Of a stretch of DNA of 46,775 bases, positions 16,932 through 43,778 are shown in pieces (the stretch's first letter is position 1; the number at the start of each line of letters is the position of its first letter). The position numbers were made by a program, and so were the translations under genes. The notes under the pieces are model-generated. The model searched no databases and was not told where the DNA came from. It saw only the letters and a program-made list of their open reading frames with translations. Origin of the DNA: a virus; the IMG/VR virus record IMGVR_UViG_3300019776_000294, positions 1-46,775 of that record. The stretch is one strand, 5' to 3'.

Positions 16932-17603
16932 ATGGGAACCATTGTTGCAAGTGTCGTGATTGAGAAAGTGCAGATTGTGTTGCAAGACGTGCTGGGCGTG
17001 CGCTGGCCGTCTGCTACTGAGTTGCTTGGCTGGCTCAATGATGCTCAGCGCGAGATCATGGTGTTCAAGCCGAACTCCAATCCCAAGACGCTGGCCGTGA
17101 AGCTGGCACCAGGCACGCGACAAAGCATTCCCAGCGATGGCGTGCAGTTGATGGATGTGGTGCGCAACATGGGCACCACGGGCACAGACCCAGGACGCGC
17201 CATCCGAATCGCCATGCGCGAGGTGTTGGACGCACAGATCCCCAACTGGCATGCCGCGCCAGCCGCATCTGTGGCCAAGCACTATATGTACACGGTCTTG
17301 GACCCCAAGAACTTCTATGTGTACCCACCACAGCCCGCAGTGAACCAGGGCTATGTGGAAATGACCTATGCCGCCATGCCTGCTGACGTGGGCTTGGGTG
17401 CAGCGATTTCTGTGGACGATATTTACCAAAACGTGATGGTGGATTACATCCTCTACCGCGCTTTGAGCAAGGACACGGAATACGCAGCGGACCCCCAACG
17501 GGCCATTGCGCACCAGACCGCTTACATCACCGCACTGACGGGAAAGATGAAGGTGGAGGCGGGTGTGAACCCGAATGTATCGGCCCCGGCCAACCCCAAT
17601 TGA
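16932..17603 (+). CDS. Head-tail connector (DUF6682-like)
   Basis: 223 aa, ATG 16932 with CCGGAG upstream. The recognisable pattern is an N-terminal helix (ATELLGWLNDAQREIMVFKP) followed by a conserved strand block (YVYPPQPAVNQGYVEMTYAAMP) and a C-terminal helical block with VMVDYILYRALSKDTEYA. This is the 'phage adaptor protein' DUF6682 family of tail-proximal connectors, which often occurs with DUF4043-type capsids. It probably forms the second ring between portal and tail hub. Confidence 0.75.
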   Translation: MGTIVASVVIEKVQIVLQDVLGVRWPSATELLGWLNDAQREIMVFKPNSNPKTLAVKLAPGTRQSIPSDGVQLMDVVRNMGTTGTDPGRAIRIAMREVLDAQIPNWHAAPAASVAKHYMYTVLDPKNFYVYPPQPAVNQGYVEMTYAAMPADVGLGAAISVDDIYQNVMVDYILYRALSKDTEYAADPQRAIAHQTAYITALTGKMKVEAGVNPNVSAPANPN

Positions 17604-26058: not shown

Positions 26059-26477
26059 AGCACTTTCTCAAAGTTGACCGCCATGGGTACGTCAGTGGCT
26101 ACACATTCTCGGACCTGGCCCCCGATGGCACGTGGGTTGAGGTGGAGTCTGGAGCGTCTGGCATCACCACATCACCGACCAAGAAACGATTGATTGACGG
26201 TCGATTGGTGGATACCGATGTTCCAAACCTGCCACCAGATCCCTGGTGCATGTGGGATGAGTGGGCGGGCGCGTGGGTGCCCAACGTGGCCATGGCCGAA
26301 GCAGCGGCGCGCACCAAGCGCAGCAGTTTGCTGCAACAGACCGATTGGACGCAGGGGCGTGACGTGCCGGATGCAGTGGCCGAGAAGTGGGCGCCATACC
26401 GCCAAGCCTTGCGCGATGTCACCGGCCAAACGGGCTTCCCTCTGCACGTCACTTGGCCAGATCCACCGTCGAATTGA
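26055..26477 (+). CDS. Tail assembly chaperone (Phage_tail_APC family)
   Basis: 140 aa, ATG in an ATGA overlap. The C-terminal third has the family signature: LLQQTDWTQGRDVPDAVAEKW, then PYRQALRDVTGQTGFP and VTWPDPP. This is the phage tail assembly chaperone pattern that usually stands beside fibre genes. The first part (VDRHGYVSGYTF, PPDPWCMWDEWAGAWV) is a fibre-interacting extension that echoes the NNGYVSGFG of the preceding protein, so it probably serves that protein. Its last codons contain a copy of the promoter-like motif. Confidence 0.82.
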   Translation: MKHFLKVDRHGYVSGYTFSDLAPDGTWVEVESGASGITTSPTKKRLIDGRLVDTDVPNLPPDPWCMWDEWAGAWVPNVAMAEAAARTKRSSLLQQTDWTQGRDVPDAVAEKWAPYRQALRDVTGQTGFPLHVTWPDPPSN

Positions 26478-26494
26478 GGGTGCTGACCCAAAAT
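26468..26494 (+). promoter_or_regulatory. Bipartite promoter motif before GNAT gene
   Basis: GTCGAATTG (26468-26476), 12 bases, CAAAAT (26489-26494). It overlaps the end of the chaperone gene and ends 7 bases before the ATG at 26501, which has no ribosome site, so a leaderless message is possible. Confidence 0.5.
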
Positions 26495-26500
26495 CAGCCT

Positions 26501-26968
26501 ATGAAAATTCGCACAGCCACGCCTGATGACATCCCATCAATTCGGCGTATGGGCCTGGATTTCCACAAAGCATCGTGTTATTCGGATGTGATACCGGCAT
26601 GCTTGGACACGTTTGAAAAAACGGTGGTCAACCTGTTCATGTGTGGGCGGGGAACGGTCATTGTGGCCGAGCATGACGATGGTGAATTGATGGGCATGGT
26701 GGCAGGCGTCACCCAACCGCATTGGTTCAATGCAGCCCACTTGGTTGGGCAAGAGTTGTTTTGGTGGGTTGACCCTTTGGCGCGTGGCAGTGGTGCTGGG
26801 TTCAAACTGATGGACGCCATAGAGAAATGGGCGCGCGACATGGGGTGCAAATCGTTTTGCATGGCCAGCACAGCCAATTTGGCGCCAGAAAAACTGGCAC
26901 GGGTTTACAAGCGGCGCGGATACGTGCCACAAGACATTTATTACGCAAAGGTGATGAACCATGCCTAG
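26501..26968 (+). CDS. GNAT-family N-acetyltransferase
   Basis: 155 aa from ATG 26501. Starts with MKIRTATPDDIPSIRRM, the usual GNAT beginning. The acetyl-CoA pyrophosphate-binding motif is RGSGAGFKLMDAIEKWA (residues 95-111; R-x-x-G-x-G), and the ending ARVYKRRGYVPQDIYYAK is typical motif B. The donor is acetyl-CoA; the acceptor cannot be told. It lies in a virion-gene region, between tail chaperone and internal virion genes, so it may modify a virion or host protein, or inactivate a host defence or toxin. Start codon without ribosome site, next to a promoter-like motif. Confidence 0.85.
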   Translation: MKIRTATPDDIPSIRRMGLDFHKASCYSDVIPACLDTFEKTVVNLFMCGRGTVIVAEHDDGELMGMVAGVTQPHWFNAAHLVGQELFWWVDPLARGSGAGFKLMDAIEKWARDMGCKSFCMASTANLAPEKLARVYKRRGYVPQDIYYAKVMNHA

Positions 26969-27650
26969 CTCAGCATTGCCAGCAGTCGCAAGTTTTGCGC
27001 TGAACCAACTTTTTACCGATGACAACGGCGCAGGTGAGGCCAACGGCGCAGCGGCCAACGCATCCAACACGCAGGCTCAGATTTCAAAAGAACAGTGGCA
27101 GCGATACAAGGAGTTGTACGCCCCACTTGAATCGAGCATGGTCAAGGAGGCGCAGAACTACGACTCGCCTGAAAACTACGCCAAGGCAGCGGGCGAAGCT
27201 CAGGCCACGGTGTCCAGTCAGTTTGGCAAGGCACGTGAACGTCTCAGCCGCACACCAGGGCTGGACCCTTCTTCACCTGGTGCAACAGCCAGCATGGCGG
27301 GGCTGGATCTTGCACAAGCCGCAACAGACGCCACACAGCAGAACGCAGCACGGCAGAAGGTCAAGGACGTGGCCTACGCGCGCAAGACCGATGCCATCTC
27401 ATTGGGCAAGGGGTTGCCTGCACAAGCATCTGCCGGGTTGGCCCAGTCAGCAAACAACAGCTTGGCACAGGCTCAATTCCAGCAAGGCCAAGCAAACATG
27501 CAGGCCGGTGCCAGTGGCCGCGTTATCGACCGCGTGTTGAACAACCCGTCTACCAGCAATTGGATCAACAACAAGTTTGGCGGCAACAGCGTACCCGGTC
27601 AATCAATCAATCCAAACTCTGGCGAGTTTGCTGGTTCGCTTGAGTTTTAA
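26961..27650 (+). CDS. Internal virion (ejection) protein, small
   Basis: 229 aa, ATG overlapping the GNAT gene by eight bases. Hydrophilic, Ala/Gln/Ser-rich and helical with a Gly-rich start; low complexity towards the C-terminus (QFQQGQANMQAGASGR). No enzyme motif. In podoviruses the first of three internal proteins (T7 gp14, P22 gp7 type) has this profile: it leaves the capsid first and helps form the channel through the envelope. Position just before two longer internal-protein genes supports this. Confidence 0.68.
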   Translation: MPSSALPAVASFALNQLFTDDNGAGEANGAAANASNTQAQISKEQWQRYKELYAPLESSMVKEAQNYDSPENYAKAAGEAQATVSSQFGKARERLSRTPGLDPSSPGATASMAGLDLAQAATDATQQNAARQKVKDVAYARKTDAISLGKGLPAQASAGLAQSANNSLAQAQFQQGQANMQAGASGRVIDRVLNNPSTSNWINNKFGGNSVPGQSINPNSGEFAGSLEF

Positions 27651-27662
27651 GGACGACACACC

Positions 27663-28802
27663 ATGAATATCGGACTCGGACTCATCGCGGCAGACGAATA
27701 CTTCAAAGAGGGTGATCGTCGCCAATTGCGCGAGCACCAGCAGGCATTGCGAGACTATGAGCGGGATATGTTGCCTGACAAAGCCAACGCTGAACGGTCT
27801 GGCTACCAGCTGCGCAACAGCCAAAACAATGCCAACTCGGAACTGTTGCCCAGTCAAACCGAGAACGCAAAAAAGCGGATTGGCCTGGATTCCGCAGAGT
27901 TGGAGGGTCAAGCAGAGCGCCAGCCCACCGAGATCAAGACCAAAGGCATTCAGGCGGGTATTGGTCTGGCCAACGCAGAGAACGACCAAATCAATGTGCC
28001 ATGGTCGCTGCAAGTCAAAAACAACGGGCTGGCCGGTCAGGTGCTGAACTCTGAGCATGAAATCGCAACACTGCCACAGAAGCTGCGCATGGCCGCGACC
28101 CAAGGCACGCTCAGTGAGCAGGGTCAGATGGACGTGGTGTTGGGCACCATGGGCGGGCTGATTTCTCGTAACGACAAGGCCGGTGCACTCAGGTTCGCAA
28201 ACGAGATTGCCAAAACGTCAGAGGTACTCCCAGGCACCAACGGCGTGACGTTCACGGACATCAAGCCAGCCAGCGGTGGGCCGCAAGGACCGGGCTATCA
28301 CTTCATCACTTCTGATGGCAAAACCATTTTTGCACCCAAGGATGCCATTGGCGGCGCCATGCAGAAACTGCAATCGGGAAAGTACAAGTTCATCGAACGC
28401 AGCGACGGCAGCATCTTTGCTGGCAACGAGGCCAACGGGCGCGGCGGGATTGTGCAGGGCGGCGATCCAGCCATGTTGCGTGGCAAGAACGCACAGCACA
28501 CGCCTGCCGACATTCAATCGGCTGAATGGCTCATGGAGCGAGTGCCCAAGTTCAAGGGCAATCCAGAAGCCGCATGGGATGCCGTGCGATCTTCCAAAGA
28601 GAAAACGCGCAGCAGCTTCATCATGGATTACGTCAGCAAGAACGCATTGCCTGGAACCGACAGCAACAAGATGGCACAAGAGGCTGGTGCCATGTATGAC
28701 GCGCTGCGCAGGAACCAAGGTGGCGGCAATTCTGCACCGTCGAATAGCGGACCCGTGGGTAAAGTTGATCCGGCAATTTCCTCCCTCATCGGCATCCCTT
28801 AG
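27663..28802 (+). CDS. Internal virion (ejection) protein, medium
   Basis: 379 aa, ATG 27663 after AAGGACG. The first 180 residues are helical and charged with many Gln/Asn/Glu. The second half has short beta-like stretches (GPGYHFITSDGKTIFAPKD) and ends in a Gly/Ser-rich tail. No catalytic motif. Order and profile match the second podovirus ejection protein (T7 gp15 or P22 gp20 position). Its end contains a copy of the promoter-like motif that would serve the giant gene. Confidence 0.65.
   Translation: MNIGLGLIAADEYFKEGDRRQLREHQQALRDYERDMLPDKANAERSGYQLRNSQNNANSELLPSQTENAKKRIGLDSAELEGQAERQPTEIKTKGIQAGIGLANAENDQINVPWSLQVKNNGLAGQVLNSEHEIATLPQKLRMAATQGTLSEQGQMDVVLGTMGGLISRNDKAGALRFANEIAKTSEVLPGTNGVTFTDIKPASGGPQGPGYHFITSDGKTIFAPKDAIGGAMQKLQSGKYKFIERSDGSIFAGNEANGRGGIVQGGDPAMLRGKNAQHTPADIQSAEWLMERVPKFKGNPEAAWDAVRSSKEKTRSSFIMDYVSKNALPGTDSNKMAQEAGAMYDALRRNQGGGNSAPSNSGPVGKVDPAISSLIGIP
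28739..28765 (+). promoter_or_regulatory. Bipartite promoter motif before giant-protein gene
   Basis: GTCGAATAG (28739-28747), 12 bases, TAAAGT (28760-28765). It is inside the end of the upstream gene, 53 bases before the ATG at 28818. Confidence 0.45.
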
Positions 28803-28817: not shown

Positions 28818-31800
28818 ATGGACTCAAATCAAGACTTTGGCAGTATCCTCCGCAACAGCAACGGTTTGAGTCCAGAAGGACAGCAGCAAGAGGGCTTAGG
28901 TTCTCTGCTGAACCAATCGCCTTACATCAGCCAGCAACCCCAAGCCACCCCATCAGCGGGCGGCGGGCGCAGTACCAAAGGCTCACTCGATCCCGCCTTT
29001 GTTGATTCCATTGCAGCAAAAGAAGGTCTGAGCGACACCCAAAAGCGGGTGATGAATGCTTTGCTGGCGCAAGAGTCGGGCTACGGTCGCAACGCGCGCA
29101 CCAGTGTGGACGGCGCGCAAGGCGCTGGCCAGATCATGCCGGGTACGTTCCAGCGGTACGCCAAGCCTGGTGAGGACATCAACGACACGGCACATAACCT
29201 GGCCGTCATGTCTCGCATCGTCAAGGATGCTGGCACCAAGTTCGGTGACGACCCCGCAAAAATCGCCACTGCCTATTTCTCGGGTGATGGCAATGTGAAC
29301 CAGGGTTCTGGCAGCGCATGGAAAAACGACCGTGCAGACGGCAACGGCAAGCGCGTGTCGAGCTATGTGGCTGACGTGCTGGGCCGTGTGGGCGAAGTGC
29401 CACCCACCCAAGCACAAGCAGCCAACCAAGCGCCAGACCTGTCCAAAGCTCCCAAGTGGGCTGACGTGGAAGCCAAGCCCGCTTTCAAGGCATTGCCAGC
29501 AGAAAAGCAGGCAGAAGCCAAGGCGGCGTACTTCGATTACTGGATTGCCCCTCACTCGGGCGAGCGGGCCGAGGAACTGCGCGGCAAGTTCTTGGCGCCA
29601 GCATCCACCGACCGCACAGCGATGCAGGTGGCCGGTGATACCGCGGTTCAACTGGCCGAAGGCGTGAACACGATCTTTGGCGCGGTGCCCAACCTTGTGG
29701 CGCCAGAGGGCCGCGTGGCCAAGTTCTTCAACGACAACGCCGAGACGTGGCGCAAGAACCAGTCTCCACAAATTCAGCAGCGCAGCGAGAACGCCAGCAA
29801 GGCCATCGACAAGGCGGGCGAGGATGGGGTGATCTCCCAGATTGCCGAAGCAGCAAGCCAGTATTTCAATGATCCAGGACTGGCCGCTCGTTTCGTGACC
29901 ACCAACCTGCCGAGCATGATCCCCGGCATTGGTGCGATGAAGGTAGCGCAAGCCGCGGCGCTTGCACGTGGCGCCAGTGCAGCCAAAGCAGCCAGCGTGG
30001 CCACCACAGCGGCGGGCGGCGTCAATGCCGTGCTGAACGCGGGCGGTGCGCGCGGCGAAGCGTTTGAGGACATCAAGAACACCCTCATCAAGCAGGGCTA
30101 CACCCCAGAACAAGCCGAGATTCAGGCTATTGCAGATTCACGCATCGTGGCAGCAATCGGCGGCGCGGCAGGCTTTGCCAGCGGCAAGATGGGCTTGGAG
30201 AAGGCACTGTCAGGCGCAGCGGGCGCGGGCGGTATCCGCGCGGGTGCCGGTGCACTGGCAAAAGAACTGGCCGGTGAGCAGATTGAAGAAGTCGCACCCA
30301 AGATTGCAACCAACATGCAGGCGCAGGCTTACGACAAGCGCAGTGCACTCAAGGACGTTGGCCGAACCATCGTAGAGACGGGCATCGGGTCAGCACCTGG
30401 CGCAGCGTTTGCCGGTGTGGCCGAAGGTCGCAAGGCCACGCTGACCCCTGACGGTCGCCTGGAAGAAGTGCCAGAAGCCAAGGCACCTGCGCCAGCACCT
30501 GAACCAACGCCAAACCCCACACCTGAGCCGGTTGCTGACCAAGACGCGGTGAACTTTGCCAAGGCACGCTATCAGCAGTTGCGCGAGAAGCAAGACGGCA
30601 AGACGGAAACGGTTGCTACCGATGACGGCATGGCCGACCAGGAGACGGCGGGCGCTGGCCTGTCTCCCACGGAGCAACAGGAATTCGATGGCCTCAAACA
30701 AGCAGCCAACGACCCCGCGGCGATTCGTACCCTGTACGGGCTGGATCAAGAAACCACCACTGAAAGCACACCAAATGTTGAAACTCAAGGACAAGACCAA
30801 GCAGATGGGCCTGCACCTGGCACGGATGCCAGCCTCCCAGATGGGCGACCAGAAGGGACAGCCCCCGAGCAAGAACCCGCAGCCGAAGCCACAGCCCCCC
30901 AAGAGGATGTCAGCAACGCAGTCGGAATCCCCGAACAACAAGATGAAGTAACGCCCAATCTGGCCGAACGGTCAGAGGGTGAGCTGCGTCAACAACTGCG
31001 CGATGCCAATGACCGCGGTGTACAGCGCCAGATCAGCGAGGAATTGGCGCGGCGCAAGGCTGAGGCTGAGCAGGCAGTGGAGCAGGTGGCCGAAACGGCG
31101 CCACCTAAGACCGAGAAGGAATCCAAGCAACGCAAAGCCCTGGACCGCATTGCCAAGGGCACGGCGTACTTTGGCAAGCAAAGCAAGGCGCAGGAATGGG
31201 TTGAAGCCAACGGTTTGACCGACACCCACACCGTGGAGAAGGATGCCAGCGGGGCAAACAAATGGAACATCGTAGCCAAGAAGGAAGATGCAAATGGCAC
31301 TCAAGCCACTGAAACCCAGCAAGCAGCGCAAGAAGGACAAGCGGCACCAAGTGCCGAGCAGCCAGTAACAAAGCGGGTTGATGGAAATCAACGCAACAGT
31401 GAGCCAATGCAAGAACTACTTGGCTTCAAGGTTGGCGACACTGGACTGAAAGTAAAAAACCGCACTTTCCCCAATGTGACCATTGAGGCGCTATTCACTC
31501 GGACGCTCCCAGGTTTTGCCGAACCTTCCAACATGGCGCGAGTACGCACGCATGCCGGTGGAATCAATGATGTATTGGTCGAGGACTTGATTCGATCTGA
31601 ACCTGTTGAAAATTCAATGGGACAAATCACAGACGGAAAACTGTTTGCAAAGCCCAAGACCGAGAAAGCGGCCAAGCAGGCCAAAAAGGCCACAGCAATG
31701 CGCGAAAAGGCAGACCGCATTGAGTCTGCTGGCGGCGATAAACAGGTTGTTCAATCGTTACGCGATCAGGCTGAGCGGGATGCACCAACTGGTAAGCAAG

Positions 31801-34800
31801 ACTTACAAGTTGACGTGTCGAAAAGCCAAGAAAAAATCGACACGTCTGCTGAACCTGTACAGGAAACCACCACAACCGACCAATTCGCCAACAACAAACT
31901 GTTCACCGCAGACAAGGTGGCAGCAGCCCGCGCCCGCATGAAATCCAAGCTGGGCACCCTGAATTCTGGGCTGGACCCTGAGTTGATGGTGGACGGCGTG
32001 ACCATTGCTGGTGCCTACATTGAGTCGGGTGTGCGCACGTTCAGCGAATACTCCAAGGCCATGATTGGCGACTTCGGGGACAAGATTCGGCCCTACCTGC
32101 GCAGCTTCTATGAAGGTGTGCGCCATTACCCCGGGCTGGACACCAAAGGCATGAGCACGCCCGCGGAAATCGACCTGATGGAAAGCCAAGGCACGGCAGA
32201 GCACACCAAGCCAGCACCGGGCACTGAGGCGGCTGTGGGCGAGGTTGTGAAGGCGCCTAAGAAAACGAAAGAGCGCAAGCCCACCGACATCCGACTCAAA
32301 GACGATTACGGCGTGGCTCACATTGATGGCTATGACGGCAACGGCGAAGGGTCAAGCGGGCCAGTCAAGGCTCAATTCCTGAAAGACACCCAGGCATACA
32401 TGCGTGACGTGTCGCTCAAGCTGCAGGACTCAGGCTTTGTGCCAGCGACCACCAAGAACGGCAAAGCATTGAAGGCGGTGAGCGTCAATGAATCTGGCGT
32501 GGCCGGGTCTGGTGACGTGATGCTGTCGATGTTTCACCCAGAAATGGGCGCTGGCATTTACATCACCATCGGCGGCACAGCAATACGCGGCGCGGTGCCC
32601 ACCACCACGTCTGGCATTTCCGTCATGATGCGCGTGACCAAGCAGGGTGACCCCTACGGTGGCGATCAGAACCGCTGGTTGCCTGTGAACCTGTCAAGCA
32701 CTGAGCTTGCAGACCTGGCCGTTCAGACGGTGCAGAAGAACCCAATTGTTAAATCTGACGCAAAGGTTCAAAATCAGACCACTGCCAATGACACCCAGGA
32801 ATCCCAAAATGCAAGCCCTGTACAAGCCGAGCCAGTATCCAAAGGAACTGCAAGCCAAGATCAAGAAAATGCCAGCACTGGCAACGGAGATAGCAAACCG
32901 GTGGGCACTGGGGTGGCCGCAGATGGTGCAGGATCTAATCAAGTCGGGGGAGTACCTGCAAGCACTGGTGAACCAGGAGGAACAGGAGCGCAACGCACTG
33001 ATTCAGGACGGAATGAACCACCTGTCAAGCTGGGAGAAAGCGGAAGTGATGGGGCTGACACAAAGCCCACCAGCAGCAACGACGACCACGTAATTGACGC
33101 CGAGGAAATCGGCAAAGGTGGGCTGGCCAAGAAGTACAAGGACAACATTGCCGCCATCAAGATCCTCAAGGCGCTGGGCGCAGAAGGGCGGGTAGCGACA
33201 CCTGACGAGCGCAAGGCGCTGGCCAAGTACGTTGGTTGGGGCGCCATGAAGGGCGCATTTGACGCATTCAACAAGTCTTGGGCAAAGCAACATGCCGAGT
33301 TGAAGGAGCTGCTGACAGACGCAGAGTTCAAAGCAGCCAAGGCATCCACGCTGGACGCCCACTACACCAGCCCGATTGCTGTGGGCGCCATGTATGACGC
33401 CATGACCCGCTTGGGGTTCAAAGGTGGCCGGGTGCTGGAGCCTTCTGTTGGGTCTGGCAATTTCTTCGGCATGATGCCGCGCGACATGCGCAATGCTTCA
33501 CAACTGTTTGGTGTGGAGTTGGATTCTCTGACCGCCAGACTGGCCCAGGCGCTGTACCCCAAGGCCAAGATTGCACACTCGGGCTTTGAAGATTTCGACA
33601 TCCCTGCCGAATACTTCGATGCCGTGGTGGGCAATCCACCCTTTGGCAGTCAGACGGTGATTGATAAGGACCGCAGCCCCTACTCAGGGTTCAGCGTTCA
33701 CAATTACTTCTTGGCCAAGGCCATCGACAAGCTGCGACCAGGCGGCATCATGCAAGTGGTGGTTTCCCACAACTTCATGGATGCGGTGGATGGCCGCACC
33801 CGAAAATGGATCGGTGAGCGCGCCACGCTGATTGGCGCAGTGCGATTGCCTGACACGGCATTCAAGGAAAACGCGGGTACTGAGGTGGTGACCGACATTC
33901 TGATTTTCCAGAAGAATGACCCCAATGCCGTGCAGGTGGACAACGCGGGCGAGTGGCAGGCGGTTGTCGATCAGGTCAACACCAACCCCAAGACGGGCGA
34001 ACCGGCCAAGCACAAGGTCAATGAATTCTTTGCCAAGAACACCGACATGGTGTTGGGCACCCCATCTGCTGGCGGCACGATGTACACGGCCAACCAGTAC
34101 ACGGTCACGGGCAATGGCGACCTGAAAGCCCAATTGGCCGATTGGGTGAAGTCTTTGCCAGAAGGCGTGTTTGACAACATCGACCGCAAGGCAGACAGCG
34201 CCGTGATTGACATGGCTGTGCCAGATGGTGTGAAGGTGGGTTCTTTCTACGTGGATGGCGCTGGCAAGGTGATGCAGCGCGGCCCTGACGTGATGGGCAA
34301 CAAAACGGCCAACGAGTGGACGCCGAAGAACCAGACGGCACCCAAGCGCATGCGGGGCATGATTGCTTTGCGTGACTTGCTGCGCACCCAGATGCGCCTG
34401 GAGCGTTCCCTCGATTCGACCACTGACGACATTGAGGCGAACCGCGCCGAGATGAACAAGCAGTATGACGCCTTCCTCAAGGAGTTTGGCCACCTGAACA
34501 GCACCACCAACCGTGGTCTGTTCATGGATGACACCGAATCCCAGTTGCTGCAAGCCTTGGAGTTTGACTACGACAAGGGCATCAGCAAGGCCACGGCTGA
34601 CAAAGAGGGCATCGACCAAAAACCCCCATCGGCAGTGAAAGCCGACATCTTCAAGCGCCGGGTTGCGTTCCCGCCACAAGACTTCTTGACGGTGAGCAAC
34701 GCCAAAGACGCCCTGTTGGCATCGCTGAACTACCGCGGCAAGGTGGATGGCGCCTACATGGCCGAGGTTTACAACAAGCCCATGGCCGAGATCGTCAAGG

Positions 34801-37800
34801 AATTGGGCGATGTGGTCTTTGAAGATCCACAGGCTGGCATTGTCACGGCTGACGAGTACCTGTCTGGCGATGTCAAGACCAAGTTGGCCGAGGCCCAAGC
34901 AGCAGCGCAAGATGATGCCAAATTCAAGCGCAACGTCAAAGCCCTGGAAACGGTCATCCCCAAGGACAAGAAGCCGTCTGAAATCAGTGTGGGCATTGGT
35001 GCATCGTTTGTGCCTGCCGAGTTGTATCAGCAGTTCGTGAAGGAAATCACGGGCGCAGGAGCGGTGGCGCACTATATGAAGGCGACCGGCCAATGGTTGA
35101 TCGACTTCAACGGCCAAGCAGACCCAGCCCTGAATGTGGGCAAGTACGGCACGGAAGATCTGGACGCGCGCGCGCTGTTCCAGTTGGCCATGCTGGGCAA
35201 GGGTGCAGTGGTCAAAAAGACGTTCAGGAATGTGGACGGATCTACCACGACTGTTGTGCTGGAGAAGGAAACCGAGGCGGCACGGTCCAAGCAAAACGCC
35301 ATCAAGGACGAGTGGAAGAAATGGATCTGGGCAGACGCTGCGCGCGCTAACCAGGTGGCCACCATCTACAACGACACCATGAACCGGCTGGTAGACCGCA
35401 AGTTCGATGGTCTGCACCTGACATTCCCAGGCATGAACCCTGCAATTTCACTGCTGAACCACCAAAAGAATGGTGTGTGGCGTGGATTGCAGTCTTACCA
35501 GGTGCTCTATGACCACGTGGTGGGCGCTGGCAAGACCTTTGAAATGGCCACTCTAGCCATGGAAATGCGCCGACTTGGCATTGCGCGCAAGCCCCTGTTT
35601 GTGGTGCCCAACCATTTGACATTGCAGTGGCGCAGTGAATTCACCCGCTTGTACCCAGGCTCCAACATCCTGGCAGCAACACCCGAGGACTTTGCCAAGG
35701 ACAAGCGTGAGCGCATGTTCTCCAAGATCATCACGGGCGATTGGGATGCGGTGGTGATCGGCCATTCTTCGCTCAAGAAGATCGGACTGCCGGAAGAAAC
35801 AGAGCGGGCCGTGCTGCAAGAGCAGATTGATGAAATCTCCCAGGCCATCGAGGACATGAAGCGCACCCGTGGCGACCGCAACATCACCCGCGACATGGAG
35901 GTCATCAAGAAGAACCTTGAAGCCAAGATGAAGGACAAGATGGCCGCAATCGGCAAACGCTCCAAGGTGGTGACGTTTGACGAATTGGGTGTTGATGCCA
36001 TGTTCGTTGACGAGATGCACGAATTCAAGAACCTCACGTACAACTCAACGATGGACCGTAACCCTGGCATGGGTAACCCTGCCGGGTCTGGCAAAGCCTT
36101 CGATATGTTCGTGAAAACCCGTTGGCTGTTTGACACCTTTGGCCAGAAAACGCCATTCATCACCGCCACGGGCACGCCGGTATCAAACTCGCTGGTCGAG
36201 ATGTACAACATGCAGCGGTACATGCAGTACCCCACCATGAAGCAAAAGGGGCTGCATGTTTTTGACGCATGGGCCAAGCAGTTTGGCAGCGTGGAAAGCG
36301 TGTACGAAGTGGCGCCATCGGGCAGCGGTTACCGCCAGTCGTCGCGCTTTGCCAAGTTCACCAACCTCCCAGGCTTGATGTCGCTGTACAACTCGTTTGC
36401 CGACACGGTGACCCTGGACGACCTGAAAGCGCAGGAAGAAGCTCAGGGCAAGCGGTTCCCCGTACCCAAGATGGTGGGCGGGCGCCCCGTGCTGGTGGTG
36501 GCCAAGCGGTCCCCGGCAGTGGCTGAGCGCATGGGCGTGCCCATGGCTGAACTGAATGAGGATGGGTCTGTCAAGTTTGAGGCTGATCCGTCACAAGAGG
36601 TGAGAATCACCCAGGACGACAAGACGCAGAAGTGGACCGCCAAGGTAGGCGATCTGACCATTGGCAACAACTTCGACACCGAGCAGGACGCCAAACTCAA
36701 AATCGTAGAGAAGGCGCTGACGCCAAAGGTATCGGTCGATCCTGGCTCAATTCTGGGCCGCTTCGCCAATTTGCGCCAGTTGACCAAACAATCCAAGGGC
36801 AAGATCAATGCTCTGTCGCTGACGGGCGAGGCCAACAAAATGGGCCTGGACTATCGCCTGATTGACCCACGTGCTGCTGACTTCCCAGGATCAAAGATCA
36901 ACATGGCCGTCAACAACATGATGGACGTGTACAAGAAGTGGGCAAAAGACAAGGGCACGCAGTTGGTTTTCTGCGATATGTCCATCCCATTGTCTGCCCG
37001 TGCTGCTTACGGTAGCAAGGAGCGCCGCTTGTACGTGCGCGGTGACGGTGACACCATTGAAATGAAACGCGGCACCCTGCACGCGGCTACCGGCCATGAG
37101 GACTTGCCGTTCTTTGTGGTGCCAACTGGTGAGAAGGAAAGCAAGGTATTCCACATCTACGATGCTGCCAGCGGTGCATACATCACACCAGGCGGTAAGA
37201 CCAAGGCTGGCGCCATCGAGAAGGCATCCGAGATCATTGCCGACGATGAAAAGCGGGCCAAGTGGATTGGCAGGCGTGAATCTGTTGGCGAGATCGGTCA
37301 AACCGACATTGACGAGTTCAACAACGAGAACGATGTCGAAACCGAAGGCATTGCTTTCTTTGGCGCCGAGGACATCGCGGGTATGTCTGGCTCTGCCCAG
37401 TTCTCTGTCTACGACGACATCAAGGCCAAGCTGGTAGCCAAAGGCGTGCCTGAGCGTGAGATAGCGTTCATCCACGACTACGACACCCCCACGGCCAAAG
37501 ACAAGCTGTTCAAGCAGGTGAAGGCCGGTGACGTGCGCTTCTTGCTGGGGTCTACGCCGAAGATGGGCGCGGGCACCAACGTGCAGGATCTGCTTGTTGG
37601 CCTGCATCACATTGATGCACCATGGCGCCCAAGCGACCTGGAGCAGCGTGAAGGCCGAATCATCCGGCGTGGAAACAAGCTGTACGAGCGTGACCCTCAA
37701 GGCTTTGAGGTGTTCATTGGCCGCTACGCCACGGAACAGACTTACGACACCCGCCGCTGGCAGATTCTGGAGCACAAGGCGCGCGGCATCGAGCAGTTGC

Positions 37801-40800
37801 GCAACTTCGATGGCACGATCAATGAGATTGACGACATCGACGGCGAGGCAGCAAACAGCGCCGACATGAAAGCCGCGGCATCGGGCGACCCGCTGATCTT
37901 GGAAGAAACCAAGCTGCGCAATGAAGTGCGCCGCCTGGAGCAGTTGCAGGCCAGCCACGCCGATGAGGTGTTGGCCATGACCCGCCGCGCGACTGACCAG
38001 AAGGAGTACGCCAGCAAGCATGGCCCAGCCAAGGTGCAGGAACTGAAAGAGTTGATTGCCGAGACGGCAAAGCACAAACTGGACAAAGACGGTTGGGCGC
38101 CTGTTCGTGTGGATGGTCAACTGCATGGCGAAAAAGAGTCAGCAGCCAAGGCGATCACCGACACGACCAGCGTGGTGAGGGCTGGCCTGGCTGAAAGCGT
38201 GATGATCCGTTATCGCGGGGTTGAGTTTGAGGTCACATACTCACATGGCAGATTGGCAGCAGACTCGCCAACGGGCAGCATTGGGACATGGGCCGCAGCA
38301 GAACCATTCAGCGCAAGCGGTTTCATCCAGCGCATGAAGAACTACGTTGACCGCTTGCCAGCCATCCAAGATGACGTGAAGGAACGAATCAAGAAGGCAG
38401 AGCATGATTCCGTGGCCTTGCTGGCACAGGCAAAACAACCATTTGCCCAGGCAGCGGATTTGGACAAGGCGCGCGAAGATTACAAAGGTGTGCAGCGTGC
38501 CCTGATGTCAAAAGGCCCAGCAGTGCCAGAGAACCAAAAGCCATTGGTGGCCAAGGGCATGGAAAACCAGAAGGCAGCACTGAAAGCTGCTGGCTTTGGC
38601 GAAGCGTTGGGCGAGTTCTTGGGTGGTGAAAGCGTCACACCCAAGCGTAACGCCAAGGACGATAATTCCAAAAATGATGACACTGACGCAGGCCAAGCAG
38701 ACAATTCGCCAGATACGGTCCGGGCTATCGGAATGCTCGAACGAAGATTTGGCGGAGATTACTTGGTTTCACATCCAGTGGAAGGATGGAGCACCAATGG
38801 AACCGCGTCGGTTGCACCAATTGCGCAAGCATTTGGCTCGAAAGTTGTTGGCTACAAGGTTAGGGCTGGACTGGAAAAAGCCGATACCTGGGGCATGGCC
38901 GGGTCCAACGGCACCCAGGCCGTGGGTCACATATTCCTCAACGTCAGCACCAACAGACCACACCTGGCAATTCTAGGCCACGAAACTGCGCATGAAATGC
39001 GCAAACGCAGGCCAGACCTGTATGCCAAGTTGAGCGATGCCATTGAGTCCTATGTAGACAAGGACAAGTACAGCAACAAGTTCAGAAACTCCAAAGTAGG
39101 TCGTGGGTCTTTGTGGGCTGGCATGACGCCAGACCAGGTGGAAGATTCCATCCAAGAAGAATTCATCGGTGAAGTGCTCTCCGATGGTTTCATGGATACA
39201 AACTTCTGGCGCGCACTGGGCCAAAAGAACAAGCAACTGCTGGCGCAGGTGTGGGCTTTCGTGGGCAAGATTTTGGGCAAGGTGCTGGGCAAAGATGGCA
39301 CCGGGTACACGAAGCGCACCGAGCAGTACCTGACCGACTACGCCAAGGTGATGCAGATTGCCGGTGAGGTGATGGCCGAGTACGGCATGAATCCGGGGGG
39401 CATGGGGAAGGCGATGGGTGTGCCCACAACACCAGAAGAACCCACGTTCAACCGCAAAGACGACACCGTTCGCCGCGTCCAAAACAACCTGTTGCAGTTC
39501 TTTGGCAACCGGGACAAGGTGCCAAGCCTCAAAACCTTTGGCGCCTACGACAAAACGCTTTCCACCCAGTTCCACAAGGCGCTGAAAGACAAGCACTATG
39601 GCAAGGTGTTTGGCCTGGTCAACGCCATGCAGAATGAAGTGAGCTTGACCAGTATCCGGCCAGCAGAATTGGCGCCAGGTGTGTTGCCCCGTGTGGATGA
39701 CGTGAAATCGGCATTCATGCAGATGGTCAAGGGCAAGAAGTCTGACTCTAATCTGACTGCAGCAGCCGATGCGATCTTTGCGGGCACCCTGGACGGCAAC
39801 AATGTCATGAGTGGCAAGGTTTGGTCTGATGACGAGTTGAAGGGCATGGGCCTGAATGACACTGGCATTGCGCTGTACCGTCAGGCGCGTGCTGCCATTG
39901 ATGCCAGCCTGGATGAAGTCGCCGCGGCTGAGGCTTACGCCATGGCACAAGGGTTTGTACCTAAGGCCATGCGCCGCGCGATCATTGACGCACCGGCCAA
40001 CGCTGAGGAACTGGTGACCAGCGAGATCCAAAAGCAGATCACCATGCTGGACAAGGCGATCAAAGCGGCTGAGAAGATGGGCGCCGAGCAGCAAGCGGCT
40101 GAGTTGAGCGCAGCTCGCAATAACTACAAGAGCACGCTTCGCCAAGTTGAAAAAATCTTCATCACTGCCAAGAACCTGAAAGCAGCCGGGTACGCACCAT
40201 TGATGCGTTTTGGCAAGTACACCGTGACCGTGCAAGCCATCGACCCAGACAGTGGGCGCGTGGCCAAGGATGAGAACGGGGATTCTATCACGCTGTTCTA
40301 CGGTCAGTTTGAGACTGAATCCGAGGCACAAGCCGTGCGCGCGCAGATGGACCAGCGGTATGCCGGCCAAGACGATGTGCGCGTGTCGGCGGGCACCAAG
40401 AGCACAACCAGCCATGAACTGTACGCTGGCGTGTCACCTGAGACGCTGGCACTGTTTGCCGAGTCCATTGGTGCTGACACGGCCATGCGCAAGTACATCG
40501 AGTTGGCCATGAATGAGCGCAGCGCCCTCAAGCGCAGGCTGGAGCGCAAGGGCACACGCGGGTACAGCGAAGATTTGCCACGGGTGCTGTCCAACTTCAT
40601 AACCAGCAATGGCCGGTTTGCCGCCCAGCGGTACTACCTGCGCGACCTGAACAACGCCATCAAGTACATCCCCAAAGAAAATGGCGATGTGATTGACGAG
40701 GCCAATGCACTCAAGAAGTTCATGACAGACCCCAATGACCCGGCAGCGCCTGTGTCGTCGGTGATGTTTGCATGGTTCTTGGGTGGTTCGGTGGCTGCAG

Positions 40801-42248
40801 CACTGGTCAATATGTCGCAGCCGGTGATGATGACCGGCCCGTACCTGTCGCAGTTTGGTGTGGGCCTGGCCACAAAATCCATGGCCAAGGCTTTGCCGTT
40901 CGCTATGGGCAAGAAGCAGATCACCGACACCGAATTGCGCGCCGCTCTCAAGCGGGCCAGCCAAGAGGGCATTGTGGATGCTCAGGAGATTTTCCACCTG
41001 TACAGCATGGGGTCACAGAATGTGGCCGCGGGCTTGGCCAGCACGTTGTCAAAACTTCCAGGCGTGGGCAAGTCGATCAAAGCCGGTAGCGAAAGCGCGC
41101 GGGCACGCATCAACGGGTTCTTGACCTTGTGGGGTTCCATGTTTGCGGTAGCCGAGGGTTTCAACCGCAAGTTGACATTCTTGGCCGCTTGGGACATTGC
41201 CAAGGCAAACGGCGAGAAGAATCCCTACGGTTTTGCTGTGCGGGCTGTGAACGAGACGCAGGGCATTTACAACAAGGCCAACCGCCCGAACTGGGCACGC
41301 AGCGCAACGGGTCGCACCATCATGACGTTCAAGCAGTTCAGCCTGATGTACGTCGAACTGCTGTCACGCATGTGGAAGAAAGGCGGGCCAGAGGGTAAGC
41401 GTGCTGCACTCATCATGCTGGCCGTGTTGATGCTGGCCGCAGGTGAAGATGGTTTGCCGTTCGCTCAGGATCTGGACGATCTGATTGACACCATCGGTCA
41501 ATTGTTCGGCCTGGACACCAACATGAAGCGCAACAAGCGCCGCGTGGCACATGAGATTTTGGGCAAGCAAATGGGCGATCTGTTCCTGCATGGTGCATCT
41601 TCCATGTTGCCGTTGGATTTTGCCGGTCGTCTTGGTCTGGGTAACTTGATCCCCGGCACCGGCCTGCTGAAACCCAGCGATGCAGACATTCGCGGTCGAC
41701 AAGTGGCTGAGGTGTTTGGCCCCACGGCGGGCATGGCCACCCAGATTGGTGACGCCTACGATGCTGTGTCAGAAGGTAACCCAGGCAAGGGCGTGCAGAA
41801 CATGATGCCCAAGGCCATCAAGGATGTGATGGCAGCAGGCGAGATGGCCAAGAAAGGCTATGCCACCGACGCCAAGGGCCGCAAGGTGGTGGACGTGGAG
41901 AAGTCAGACGCAGCCATCAAAGCGATTGGTTTTCAGCCTACCAAGGTAGCGCAGGAAACCCGCAAGACCATGCCCATCTATCAGGACATCGCACTCCAAA
42001 AGCGTACTGAAACCAGCATCGTGAATCAGTGGGTTCGTGGTCTGGCTGACAACGACATGGAAATGGCAAAAGCGGCTGAGAAGCGGCTGGATGCCTGGAA
42101 CCGTGACAACCCTGGCACGCCTATCAGGATTTCGCCAGACCAGTTGCGCGCGCAGGCCCGCCTGATGGTGACCGACAAGGACACCCGCTTGCTCAAGTCG
42201 GTCCCAAGGGAAATGCGGGCGCGGGTTGGGCTAGACCTGGCAGATTAA
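28818..42248 (+). CDS. Giant polyvalent virion protein (SLT, N6-MTase, SNF2 helicase, HExxH protease, PLxRFG)
   Basis: 4,476 aa, 29 percent of the window, uninterrupted. Domains in order: lytic transglycosylase, residues 60-190 (catalytic Glu86 in AQESGYG, QGAGQIMPGTF); hydrophobic Ala/Gly helices, about 355-540, for membrane passage; Pro/Glu/Gln linkers, 540-770; small polyvalent-associated domains, about 860-930, 1028-1115 and 1160-1308; N6-adenine methyltransferase, about 1435-1650 (VLEPSVGSGNFFG near 1539, NPPF 1606-1609); SNF2-like helicase, about 2220-2990 (Walker A GAGKT 2236-2240, DEMH 2398-2401, QREGRIIRRGN near 2945); metallopeptidase, about 3310-3490 (HETAH 3388-3392); PLMRFG at 3794-3799, the motif naming the PLxRFG family; C-terminal helical LPD38-like region, about 4070-4476. 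Polyvalent proteins are packaged and injected with the DNA to open the cell wall and protect the incoming genome from restriction. All catalytic motifs look intact. Confidence 0.88.
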   Translation: MDSNQDFGSILRNSNGLSPEGQQQEGLGSLLNQSPYISQQPQATPSAGGGRSTKGSLDPAFVDSIAAKEGLSDTQKRVMNALLAQESGYGRNARTSVDGAQGAGQIMPGTFQRYAKPGEDINDTAHNLAVMSRIVKDAGTKFGDDPAKIATAYFSGDGNVNQGSGSAWKNDRADGNGKRVSSYVADVLGRVGEVPPTQAQAANQAPDLSKAPKWADVEAKPAFKALPAEKQAEAKAAYFDYWIAPHSGERAEELRGKFLAPASTDRTAMQVAGDTAVQLAEGVNTIFGAVPNLVAPEGRVAKFFNDNAETWRKNQSPQIQQRSENASKAIDKAGEDGVISQIAEAASQYFNDPGLAARFVTTNLPSMIPGIGAMKVAQAAALARGASAAKAASVATTAAGGVNAVLNAGGARGEAFEDIKNTLIKQGYTPEQAEIQAIADSRIVAAIGGAAGFASGKMGLEKALSGAAGAGGIRAGAGALAKELAGEQIEEVAPKIATNMQAQAYDKRSALKDVGRTIVETGIGSAPGAAFAGVAEGRKATLTPDGRLEEVPEAKAPAPAPEPTPNPTPEPVADQDAVNFAKARYQQLREKQDGKTETVATDDGMADQETAGAGLSPTEQQEFDGLKQAANDPAAIRTLYGLDQETTTESTPNVETQGQDQADGPAPGTDASLPDGRPEGTAPEQEPAAEATAPQEDVSNAVGIPEQQDEVTPNLAERSEGELRQQLRDANDRGVQRQISEELARRKAEAEQAVEQVAETAPPKTEKESKQRKALDRIAKGTAYFGKQSKAQEWVEANGLTDTHTVEKDASGANKWNIVAKKEDANGTQATETQQAAQEGQAAPSAEQPVTKRVDGNQRNSEPMQELLGFKVGDTGLKVKNRTFPNVTIEALFTRTLPGFAEPSNMARVRTHAGGINDVLVEDLIRSEPVENSMGQITDGKLFAKPKTEKAAKQAKKATAMREKADRIESAGGDKQVVQSLRDQAERDAPTGKQDLQVDVSKSQEKIDTSAEPVQETTTTDQFANNKLFTADKVAAARARMKSKLGTLNSGLDPELMVDGVTIAGAYIESGVRTFSEYSKAMIGDFGDKIRPYLRSFYEGVRHYPGLDTKGMSTPAEIDLMESQGTAEHTKPAPGTEAAVGEVVKAPKKTKERKPTDIRLKDDYGVAHIDGYDGNGEGSSGPVKAQFLKDTQAYMRDVSLKLQDSGFVPATTKNGKALKAVSVNESGVAGSGDVMLSMFHPEMGAGIYITIGGTAIRGAVPTTTSGISVMMRVTKQGDPYGGDQNRWLPVNLSSTELADLAVQTVQKNPIVKSDAKVQNQTTANDTQESQNASPVQAEPVSKGTASQDQENASTGNGDSKPVGTGVAADGAGSNQVGGVPASTGEPGGTGAQRTDSGRNEPPVKLGESGSDGADTKPTSSNDDHVIDAEEIGKGGLAKKYKDNIAAIKILKALGAEGRVATPDERKALAKYVGWGAMKGAFDAFNKSWAKQHAELKELLTDAEFKAAKASTLDAHYTSPIAVGAMYDAMTRLGFKGGRVLEPSVGSGNFFGMMPRDMRNASQLFGVELDSLTARLAQALYPKAKIAHSGFEDFDIPAEYFDAVVGNPPFGSQTVIDKDRSPYSGFSVHNYFLAKAIDKLRPGGIMQVVVSHNFMDAVDGRTRKWIGERATLIGAVRLPDTAFKENAGTEVVTDILIFQKNDPNAVQVDNAGEWQAVVDQVNTNPKTGEPAKHKVNEFFAKNTDMVLGTPSAGGTMYTANQYTVTGNGDLKAQLADWVKSLPEGVFDNIDRKADSAVIDMAVPDGVKVGSFYVDGAGKVMQRGPDVMGNKTANEWTPKNQTAPKRMRGMIALRDLLRTQMRLERSLDSTTDDIEANRAEMNKQYDAFLKEFGHLNSTTNRGLFMDDTESQLLQALEFDYDKGISKATADKEGIDQKPPSAVKADIFKRRVAFPPQDFLTVSNAKDALLASLNYRGKVDGAYMAEVYNKPMAEIVKELGDVVFEDPQAGIVTADEYLSGDVKTKLAEAQAAAQDDAKFKRNVKALETVIPKDKKPSEISVGIGASFVPAELYQQFVKEITGAGAVAHYMKATGQWLIDFNGQADPALNVGKYGTEDLDARALFQLAMLGKGAVVKKTFRNVDGSTTTVVLEKETEAARSKQNAIKDEWKKWIWADAARANQVATIYNDTMNRLVDRKFDGLHLTFPGMNPAISLLNHQKNGVWRGLQSYQVLYDHVVGAGKTFEMATLAMEMRRLGIARKPLFVVPNHLTLQWRSEFTRLYPGSNILAATPEDFAKDKRERMFSKIITGDWDAVVIGHSSLKKIGLPEETERAVLQEQIDEISQAIEDMKRTRGDRNITRDMEVIKKNLEAKMKDKMAAIGKRSKVVTFDELGVDAMFVDEMHEFKNLTYNSTMDRNPGMGNPAGSGKAFDMFVKTRWLFDTFGQKTPFITATGTPVSNSLVEMYNMQRYMQYPTMKQKGLHVFDAWAKQFGSVESVYEVAPSGSGYRQSSRFAKFTNLPGLMSLYNSFADTVTLDDLKAQEEAQGKRFPVPKMVGGRPVLVVAKRSPAVAERMGVPMAELNEDGSVKFEADPSQEVRITQDDKTQKWTAKVGDLTIGNNFDTEQDAKLKIVEKALTPKVSVDPGSILGRFANLRQLTKQSKGKINALSLTGEANKMGLDYRLIDPRAADFPGSKINMAVNNMMDVYKKWAKDKGTQLVFCDMSIPLSARAAYGSKERRLYVRGDGDTIEMKRGTLHAATGHEDLPFFVVPTGEKESKVFHIYDAASGAYITPGGKTKAGAIEKASEIIADDEKRAKWIGRRESVGEIGQTDIDEFNNENDVETEGIAFFGAEDIAGMSGSAQFSVYDDIKAKLVAKGVPEREIAFIHDYDTPTAKDKLFKQVKAGDVRFLLGSTPKMGAGTNVQDLLVGLHHIDAPWRPSDLEQREGRIIRRGNKLYERDPQGFEVFIGRYATEQTYDTRRWQILEHKARGIEQLRNFDGTINEIDDIDGEAANSADMKAAASGDPLILEETKLRNEVRRLEQLQASHADEVLAMTRRATDQKEYASKHGPAKVQELKELIAETAKHKLDKDGWAPVRVDGQLHGEKESAAKAITDTTSVVRAGLAESVMIRYRGVEFEVTYSHGRLAADSPTGSIGTWAAAEPFSASGFIQRMKNYVDRLPAIQDDVKERIKKAEHDSVALLAQAKQPFAQAADLDKAREDYKGVQRALMSKGPAVPENQKPLVAKGMENQKAALKAAGFGEALGEFLGGESVTPKRNAKDDNSKNDDTDAGQADNSPDTVRAIGMLERRFGGDYLVSHPVEGWSTNGTASVAPIAQAFGSKVVGYKVRAGLEKADTWGMAGSNGTQAVGHIFLNVSTNRPHLAILGHETAHEMRKRRPDLYAKLSDAIESYVDKDKYSNKFRNSKVGRGSLWAGMTPDQVEDSIQEEFIGEVLSDGFMDTNFWRALGQKNKQLLAQVWAFVGKILGKVLGKDGTGYTKRTEQYLTDYAKVMQIAGEVMAEYGMNPGGMGKAMGVPTTPEEPTFNRKDDTVRRVQNNLLQFFGNRDKVPSLKTFGAYDKTLSTQFHKALKDKHYGKVFGLVNAMQNEVSLTSIRPAELAPGVLPRVDDVKSAFMQMVKGKKSDSNLTAAADAIFAGTLDGNNVMSGKVWSDDELKGMGLNDTGIALYRQARAAIDASLDEVAAAEAYAMAQGFVPKAMRRAIIDAPANAEELVTSEIQKQITMLDKAIKAAEKMGAEQQAAELSAARNNYKSTLRQVEKIFITAKNLKAAGYAPLMRFGKYTVTVQAIDPDSGRVAKDENGDSITLFYGQFETESEAQAVRAQMDQRYAGQDDVRVSAGTKSTTSHELYAGVSPETLALFAESIGADTAMRKYIELAMNERSALKRRLERKGTRGYSEDLPRVLSNFITSNGRFAAQRYYLRDLNNAIKYIPKENGDVIDEANALKKFMTDPNDPAAPVSSVMFAWFLGGSVAAALVNMSQPVMMTGPYLSQFGVGLATKSMAKALPFAMGKKQITDTELRAALKRASQEGIVDAQEIFHLYSMGSQNVAAGLASTLSKLPGVGKSIKAGSESARARINGFLTLWGSMFAVAEGFNRKLTFLAAWDIAKANGEKNPYGFAVRAVNETQGIYNKANRPNWARSATGRTIMTFKQFSLMYVELLSRMWKKGGPEGKRAALIMLAVLMLAAGEDGLPFAQDLDDLIDTIGQLFGLDTNMKRNKRRVAHEILGKQMGDLFLHGASSMLPLDFAGRLGLGNLIPGTGLLKPSDADIRGRQVAEVFGPTAGMATQIGDAYDAVSEGNPGKGVQNMMPKAIKDVMAAGEMAKKGYATDAKGRKVVDVEKSDAAIKAIGFQPTKVAQETRKTMPIYQDIALQKRTETSIVNQWVRGLADNDMEMAKAAEKRLDAWNRDNPGTPIRISPDQLRAQARLMVTDKDTRLLKSVPREMRARVGLDLAD

Positions 42249-42319: not shown

Positions 42320-42376
42320 TGGCTGAACCTTGGTTTAGCCATGAAAATCATGATTTCAATCAACACTGACTCCACC

Positions 42377-42748
42377 ATGAAAAAGATTATTTTCTCCGCA
42401 TGCTTTGTGTTTTCTTTGAGTGCTTTTGGAAATGAGTCATCCAATGTTTTGGCAACCAAGGAAGGTCGATATGTCCTTGGCAGTGTTGAAACCGGTGGTG
42501 GTGGTGTAAACACAAAAAAGCTGTATCTTTTGGACACCGCAAACGGACAAGTTTGGCATCAAGGCTGCATCACTTGGGATAAGGATGACAAATGCACCTC
42601 AACAGGATTGAGGCCAGTTGGCCTGAGTGATGGGGCTGGAGGACGAGTTTTTGACAACGCGGAAGCCTGGAGCTATGCCAATGATCTTGGTAAGGTGATT
42701 CGTGAATCTGAACGCAATGGTCAAAAAACAAACCCATTGAAGAAATAG
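42377..42748 (+). CDS. Small secreted protein, probable lysogenic-conversion (moron) gene
   Basis: 123 aa from ATG 42377, chosen because it begins the signal peptide MKKIIFSACFVFSLSAFG; an upstream in-frame ATG at 42341 would place 12 residues before it. The signal is cleaved probably after AFG-N. The mature part is about 105 residues with short beta stretches (GRYVLGSVETGGGGV, KKLYLLDTANGQVWHQGC) and two Cys that could form a disulphide. It is more AT-rich than the phage and lies alone between the end of the late operon and the integrase, with its own palindrome upstream. This is the usual place for genes expressed from the prophage. Function unknown. Confidence 0.65.
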   Translation: MKKIIFSACFVFSLSAFGNESSNVLATKEGRYVLGSVETGGGGVNTKKLYLLDTANGQVWHQGCITWDKDDKCTSTGLRPVGLSDGAGGRVFDNAEAWSYANDLGKVIRESERNGQKTNPLKK

Positions 42749-42752
42749 TCAA

Positions 42753-43778
42753 TCACCCCCCAAACTGCCCATGCCCAGCCTTGTGCAGATCCACTGCACG
42801 AAGCTGGGTGTAGCGTTTGAGCATTTTCCAGTCACGGTGGCCTGAGACGATGGCCACTTGCTCGATGCGAAAGCCCTGTTCAAACAACCGGCTGACACCC
42901 TCATGGCGCAGGTCATGAAACCGCAAACCCTTGATGCCCAGGGCATGGCACGCGCGCGGGAAGATAGAACTGATGGTGCCGCCTTTCTGTGGAAAGATCA
43001 GTTCACCCAGCCTAGCCTGTCGCTTGACGATGGCAAATGAGTCGCCCAACAGTGGCACCTCCTGATCGTTGCCTTCTTTCTGGTTGGGGTGTTTGCGATC
43101 CCGTATCAGGATGGTCCTGTCCTGTTCGTTCAGGTCATCCCAGCGTAGGCGCATGATTTCGTCTAGGCGCATGGCAGTGAGCACGGCAAACTGGATGATG
43201 TCGCGCATGGGCAGTTTGCTGTGCTTGTCAAAGTAGTCACACAACCGGTCCAGTTCATCGGTGGTGGGGCGCCGGTCGCGCTCTTTGGCTTTGGTGCTGA
43301 CCTTGATGTGTTTCAGGTAGGCGCGGGCCGTGGTGAAAATCTCGGTGCTGACGGGGATCTTCCAGATTTGGCGGGCCGTCTTGTAAATGCCCCCCAGGTA
43401 GGTGAGGTCAATGGCGATGGTGACACCGCCAGCACCTTCCCGCATTCGTTCTTTGACGTACTGGATCAGGCGGTCGTCAGTCAGCTTGTCAAGCGTGAGG
43501 TGGCCAAGGTTGCCCTCAATGGATTTCAGGACAGCGGCCTTGTTTCGGCCAAAGGTGACGTGTGAAAGTTCGGTGCGGTATCGGTCAATCAGGCTGGACA
43601 ATGTGACCTTTTCCAAGTCTCGCCCATCCACATAGGTGCCCGAGTCGATTGCGAATTCGGTTTTGGTGGCCCACTTCTTGGCCAGTGCAAGGGTGGGAAA
43701 ATTGGCGCTGATAGAGTTGTGGCCCTTACGGCGAATCTGGGCGCGGAACCCGTCTCCGACCTTTGTAAAAGATGCCAT
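42753..43778 (-). CDS. int: Tyrosine recombinase integrase
   Basis: 341 aa on the minus strand; ATG at 43778 with AAAGGAC upstream. Arm-binding N-terminus (SAFTKVGDGFRAQIRRKG-like), core-binding helices (70-150), and a catalytic domain with Arg204 (TAMRLDE), Lys229 (RDRKH), His288 and Arg291 (FHDLRH), His314 (SGHRDW) and the nucleophile Tyr323 (KRYTQL). All residues needed for strand exchange are present, so the phage is temperate and integration-competent. Four copies of a GGTGCA word in the region just upstream are candidate arm-type sites. It is the most downstream gene of the leftward block. Confidence 0.93.
   Translation of the reverse strand: MASFTKVGDGFRAQIRRKGHNSISANFPTLALAKKWATKTEFAIDSGTYVDGRDLEKVTLSSLIDRYRTELSHVTFGRNKAAVLKSIEGNLGHLTLDKLTDDRLIQYVKERMREGAGGVTIAIDLTYLGGIYKTARQIWKIPVSTEIFTTARAYLKHIKVSTKAKERDRRPTTDELDRLCDYFDKHSKLPMRDIIQFAVLTAMRLDEIMRLRWDDLNEQDRTILIRDRKHPNQKEGNDQEVPLLGDSFAIVKRQARLGELIFPQKGGTISSIFPRACHALGIKGLRFHDLRHEGVSRLFEQGFRIEQVAIVSGHRDWKMLKRYTQLRAVDLHKAGHGQFGG

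Follow-up and report, generated by a model that had tools for sequence, protein, structure and literature searches.

The window, by which we mean the whole 46,775-nucleotide viral stretch analysed here, carries genes for terminase, portal, major head protein, adaptor, tail, internal virion proteins, integrase and helicase; since the contigs of larger relatives measure 60-65 kb, this 46.8-kb record is probably incomplete. Two genes in tandem (16282-16920 and 16932-17603) both match the SU10 head-tail adaptor family. The gene under study (28818..42248, + strand, ATG start) runs without internal stops and encodes a protein of 4,476 amino acids and 484 kDa. It is the last of a conserved three-gene operon, preceded on the same strand by two putative ejection genes: the first (26961..27650) matches a 'DNA ejection' PHROG (E 1.7e-5) and the second (27663..28802; 379 amino acids) is conserved ahead of it in related loci, its product having no annotated relatives in a tblastn search of phage records. 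In nine relatives (L002, L003, L004, L006, L007, L030, L031, L033 and L096) both genes again adjoin the giant gene. Ahead of them lies a GNAT acetyltransferase gene (26387..26968, + strand), a homologue of which takes the same position in Cobavirinae, beside internal virion protein genes. The giant gene is followed (42341-43778) by a small unknown gene and an integrase on the other strand; Pseudomonas phage 8P has holin, lysozyme and integrase genes there, so the lysis genes of the window phage are elsewhere or in the missing part. Megablast against phage records found no close DNA relative of the window, and scans for promoters and terminators returned sites no more numerous than in shuffled sequence.

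The original prediction had read in this single frame an SLT domain, an N6 methyltransferase with an NPPF motif, an SNF2 helicase, an HExxH peptidase and the PLxRFG motif. All are present, with motifs found intact by Pfam, NCBIfam and alignment, and degeneracy, which would have counted against that reading, was not seen when the motifs were aligned with 27 relatives including P1 DarB. The hydrophobic segments proposed to serve membrane passage are real at residues 3979-3997 and 4198-4216 and are few, the region 260-560 being Gly/Ala-rich and not strongly hydrophobic. Three independent contigs (L018, L020 and L023) have the same architecture, with cargo 72-76% and C-termini 71-75% identical to the window protein; the architecture is therefore not an assembly artefact, and a chimera is ruled out. 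GC content along the gene ranges merely from 0.55 to 0.61. As a whole, the protein matches the PHROGs family 'DarB-like antirestriction' (phrog_10089, 2,044 bits), and, as polyvalent proteins do, it unites in a single chain several catalytic domains that are unrelated to one another, with packaging genes nearby. Judged by its sequence, it is a member of the known DarB-like/polyvalent family.

The central cargo begins with an LPD36-like region (33105..33332, + strand) ahead of the methyltransferase. Its GWGA (residues 1473-1476) corresponds to the GXGU motif by which LPD36 was defined (PMC5512222), and GXG[GAS] occurs in 28/28 aligned sequences, including P1 DarB (GEGG). There follow a TaqI-like, gamma-class N6 adenine methyltransferase (33414..33947, + strand; residues 1533-1710, NPPF at 1606; Pfam N6_Mtase, E 2.8e-10) and an SNF2/SF2 ATPase with both lobes (35490..37674, + strand; residues 2225-2952), in which Pfam places ResIII/SNF2 at 2225-2406 and Helicase_C at 2879-2952. 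The motifs HYT, LEPSVGSGNF, NPPF, GAGKT, DEMH, ATGTP and QREGRIIRRGN are intact across the window protein and the 27 relatives. Both marks of the DarB-like family, LPD36 GXGU ahead of a gamma-class methyltransferase and fusion to an SNF2-type helicase with intact motifs, are thus found here, and this unit would methylate and protect the entering DNA.

At the N-terminus, a peptide conserved in relatives (28818..28937, + strand) contains (F/L)GS(I/L)L twice, at residues 7-11 and 27-31. By analogy with P1 DarB, which is packaged via its N-terminus (PMC9024508), it is a candidate packaging signal; a scan of the other virion genes for this type of motif found a single internal FGEFL. An SLT lytic transglycosylase domain (29034..29315, + strand; residues 73-166; Pfam E 2e-7, over the cut-off) keeps a QES of the catalytic type in alignment with relatives. 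Beyond it, the stretch 293-522 (29694..30383, + strand) is exchangeable, being common to L018/L019 and missing from L003. The model of residues 770-1440 is poor except at 949-994, 1025-1130 and 1182-1309, and a PDB search with it returned nothing significant. Residues 1025-1130 (31890..32207, + strand) form an all-helical domain (pLDDT mostly >80, core ~95) common to DarB, Sno and other cargo classes. Three unnamed stretches had been proposed as places where new activities might hide. One, 1160-1308, does hold a mostly confident alpha/beta domain (residues 1182-1309; 32361..32744, + strand), without a PDB match; 860-930 gave no confident fold in the prediction of 770-1440; and in 3500-3780 the HExxH domain ends and a conserved, all-helical C-terminal module starts. 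Structure prediction and fold search showed no new enzymatic activity in these stretches.

How such a protein is deployed is suggested by better-known systems. BcepIL02 gp70 and JC1 gp69 share with the window protein its size, N-terminal SLT domain, LPD36-methyltransferase-SNF2 cargo and late-gene position, and JC1 gp69 (4,515 amino acids, same kind of cargo) is present in virions, as seen by mass spectrometry with 51 unique peptides (PMC9144972). The earlier description of an injected polyvalent protein is thus borne out for family membership and for the presence of a homologue in virions, and injection itself would be expected from JC1 and P1. The proposed analogy with the Bcep22 group stands for the cargo (34.5% identity with BcepIL02 across 1,254 aligned residues) and fails for the C-terminal module: BcepIL02 ends in LPD38, whereas the window protein has no LPD38 in Pfam at E up to 1 and an hhalign probability of 0.3% to the BcepIL02 C-terminus, and in contrast to the Bcep22 group it carries an HExxH domain directly ahead of its C-terminal module. 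That module is instead homologous to those of F116-like phages and Pavtokvirus/Lastavirus. The nearest annotated relative, Pseudomonas phage 8P gp23 (5,145 amino acids), has cargo 58% identical to that of the window protein and a C-terminal module of the same family, yet its C-terminus is 31-35% identical to the window's and 78% to that of the F116-type Epa33, and another protease family precedes it. Epa33 gp62 itself has a PLxRFG module 33-36% identical to the window's but lacks DarB cargo, carrying instead another methyltransferase with LPD23 and LPD3. P1 DarB (2,255 amino acids) shares the LPD36-methyltransferase-SNF2 core but has no match to the SLT, HExxH and PLxRFG parts. Annotated phages with related proteins also include Erwinia PEp14, Klebsiella SopranoGao and the Bcep22 group.

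We compared the relatives all-against-all. Scans with the C-terminal module found it at 78 loci of viruses and at 27 loci in genomes, most of these 27 from beta- and gammaproteobacteria. By cargo, the 88 dereplicated proteins comprise 27 DarB, 10 Sno, 9 F116-type and 35 other, with 7 too short. Exchange of the middle between conserved ends is plain in IMG/VR L004/L006/L007, which keep the N-terminal 220-290 residues (54-58%) and the C-terminal 930 (40-62%) but differ between them, with a methyltransferase and a Strawberry-notch helicase; likewise L025 has a C-terminus 70% identical, yet cargo of the Strawberry-notch type. On an 86-row tree of this constant part, the chassis, cargo class changes at least 29 times, against 30-43 (mean 37.7) with shuffled labels, a rough count because the 'other' class is a mixture; cargo is therefore weakly tied to chassis. 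Among DarB carriers, identity to the window in the chassis shows no correlation with identity in the cargo (rho 0.22, n=26, p 0.28). Further cargo on the same chassis includes ART (ADP-ribosyltransferase), MuF-C, InPase (pyrophosphatase), ddrB-ParB, PBECR1 nuclease and Acb1/2H, the last being an Acb1/2H-phosphoesterase-like domain of anti-CBASS type in L052 (2-9940, translated residues 443-535). Two loci have divided modules: in a Paracidovorax prophage (L118, frame from 5105) ~300 residues interrupt the C-terminal module (matches 1601-2256 and 2571-2891), and in L040 it extends over two frames (9566 and 11814), possibly through a frameshift or sequencing error.

The C-terminal module of the window protein (39450..42245, + strand; residues 3545-4476) is mostly helical, has PLxRFG at 3794-3799 and matches the NCBIfam PLxRFG domain NF032893 at 3791-4466 (E 3.8e-139; 465 bits against a cut-off of 100). 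An AlphaFold2 model of residues 3277-4476 (pLDDT 83, pTM 0.71) was compared with viral models by Foldseek. Ranked after other polyvalent proteins were internal virion protein D of Roseobacter CRP-4 and CRP-5, with further matches to P12053L gp42 and the core proteins of Ab05 and RSB3; E-values for CRP-4, P12053L, Ab05 and RSB3 were 2e-6 to 3e-4, although long helical proteins may match over part of their length and the TMq of the gp16-class matches is ≤0.34. With this model a PDB structure search returned nothing significant, the best-ranked rows (ABC transporters) having TM-scores <0.1, and the C-terminal profile found no PDB relative at the sequence level. By hhalign, the same profile reached 51.1 against the phiKMV gp37 family and 53.8 against that of Siovirus; the maxima in 60 column shuffles were 32.2 and 30.4, and the decoy maximum was 31.5. 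The corresponding probabilities were 53% and 68%, and 5% for T7 gp16 alone, making homology to the gp16-class likely, not proven. When the Siovirus IVP-D HMM was run over 1,691 ORFs, the 18 best matches all fell in proteins with the C-terminal module, nearly all at one consistent place near the C-terminus; with the phiKMV-family HMM over the same ORFs the two best matches lay outside the module, and those at the FKxF segment were co-located and each weak (E ~0.7 or more). The stretch 41280..41465 (+ strand) comprises this segment (GRTIMTFKQFSLMYVE / GKMVMQFKSFTIKSL) and the hydrophobic residues 4198-4216. In T7 gp16 the alignment begins at residue 1096, so that it covers the second putative membrane region of gp16 (1119-1290; PMC8954989) and the residues immediately ahead of it. 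A module shared with N4 virion RNA polymerase, BcepIL02 (LPD38), VvAW1 or P1 DarB was considered and rejected (hhalign 0.2-0.4%).

T7 gp16 resembles the window protein further in its N-terminal SLT domain and in being the last ejection gene, the distant C-terminal similarity including the FKxF segment. It differs in that gp16 and internal virion protein D, of ~1,000-1,500 amino acids in the proteins compared, have no such enzymatic cargo, and sequence similarity is weak. The founding Bcep22 paper may have made this comparison with gp16 before. In phage N4 another giant enzyme, the virion RNA polymerase, occupies the gp16 position among the ejection genes (PMC12633501); its C-terminal domain has no detectable similarity to the module of the window protein. 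The chassis might instead be a structural or tape-like tail component, with cargo acting in the virion or in assembly and never injected; homologues are annotated 'structural protein' in phage records, and NCBIfam names the C-terminal family tail-700. We regard this as very improbable, since methyltransferase, SNF2, ART and PBECR RNase activities make most sense in the recipient, and P1 DarB shields injected DNA in cis from type I enzymes (PMC5512222, PMC9024508).

It could also be argued that the window protein is an ordinary DarB-like antirestriction head protein, lying in the capsid as in P1 and outside any ejectosome, its SLT domain merely helping entry. The PHROGs assignment of the whole protein agrees with this, as do the conserved, repeated N-terminal motif and the fact that P1 DarB, which has no match to the window's SLT or PLxRFG parts, is packaged into heads through an N-terminal signal. 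Against it stand the conservation of the N- and C-terminal modules independently of DarB cargo, the gp16-class similarity and the last place in a conserved three-gene operon, and we judge this explanation unlikely.

Directly ahead of the C-terminal module lies a zincin-like HExxH domain (38730..39407, + strand; residues 3305-3530), with HETAH at 3388, EEFIGEV at 3447 and a presumed protease activity. The domain is common to several relatives, and the HExxH and a downstream acidic residue (E) are conserved in those aligned; its model has the strand-helix order expected of a zincin fold, without a Pfam MPTase match or a significant PDB match. Of the 82 relatives with enough sequence, 40 have an HExxH no more than 600 residues ahead of the C-terminal module, against 0.9 expected (300 shuffles, maximum 4). 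Kinship among relatives inflates this count; independent of kinship is the number of families, the motifs in this slot falling into at least four with mutually no detectable profile similarity by hhalign. Three different HExxH families occur there among the chassis closest to that of the window (71-76% identity). About half of the relatives have none, so a protease at this place is not universal. Selection probably maintains a protease in this slot, and its simplest purpose would be to free the cargo. Within the same architecture, the HExxH domain might alternatively target a host or defence protein and not the polyprotein: cargo elsewhere on the chassis is likely to have host targets, and many unrelated zincins would fit varied targets. 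This we consider possible but doubtful, as the motif sits a short way ahead of the C-terminal module in 40 of 82 relatives whose cargo otherwise differs, a position that suits release better, and self-processing has been proposed for polyvalent MPTases by Iyer et al. (PMC5512222).

Taken together, we think it probable that the window protein is a DNA-ejection protein of the T7 gp16 class, carrying cargo that can be swapped and a protease that releases it. The N-terminal SLT domain would cut peptidoglycan, and the C-terminal helical module would package the protein and insert it as the inner-membrane part of an ejectosome, the ~3,200 middle residues being passengers between the two ends. Of these, the LPD36-methyltransferase-SNF2 unit of P1 DarB type would shield the entering DNA from restriction, and the metallopeptidase beside the C-terminal module probably cuts the cargo free. 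For the window phage, then, we infer presence in the virion, injection, cleavage, methylation and protection. The original prediction was right in part, and had not seen that both ends may form a gp16-class ejection chassis with exchangeable cargo and a protease. New here are the conserved ends with an exchanged middle, the HExxH slot with at least four families and the C-terminal link to internal virion protein D.

Polyvalent proteins have so far been described as multi-domain weapons. We judge the chances even that a whole group of phage polyvalent proteins consists of gp16-class ejectosome proteins with changing anti-defence cargo, in which the slot beside the membrane module is refilled repeatedly by unrelated metallopeptidases because cargo must be freed past the envelope. 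If what stays constant in them is an ejection protein of gp16 type, the way in which such giants are packaged, pass the envelope and are taken apart turns into a concrete mechanism that can be put to the test. The group would then be a second case, alongside the RNA polymerase of N4, in which a giant enzyme stands where gp16 would, and its variable part would be a catalogue of anti-defence enzymes, readable between two conserved ends.
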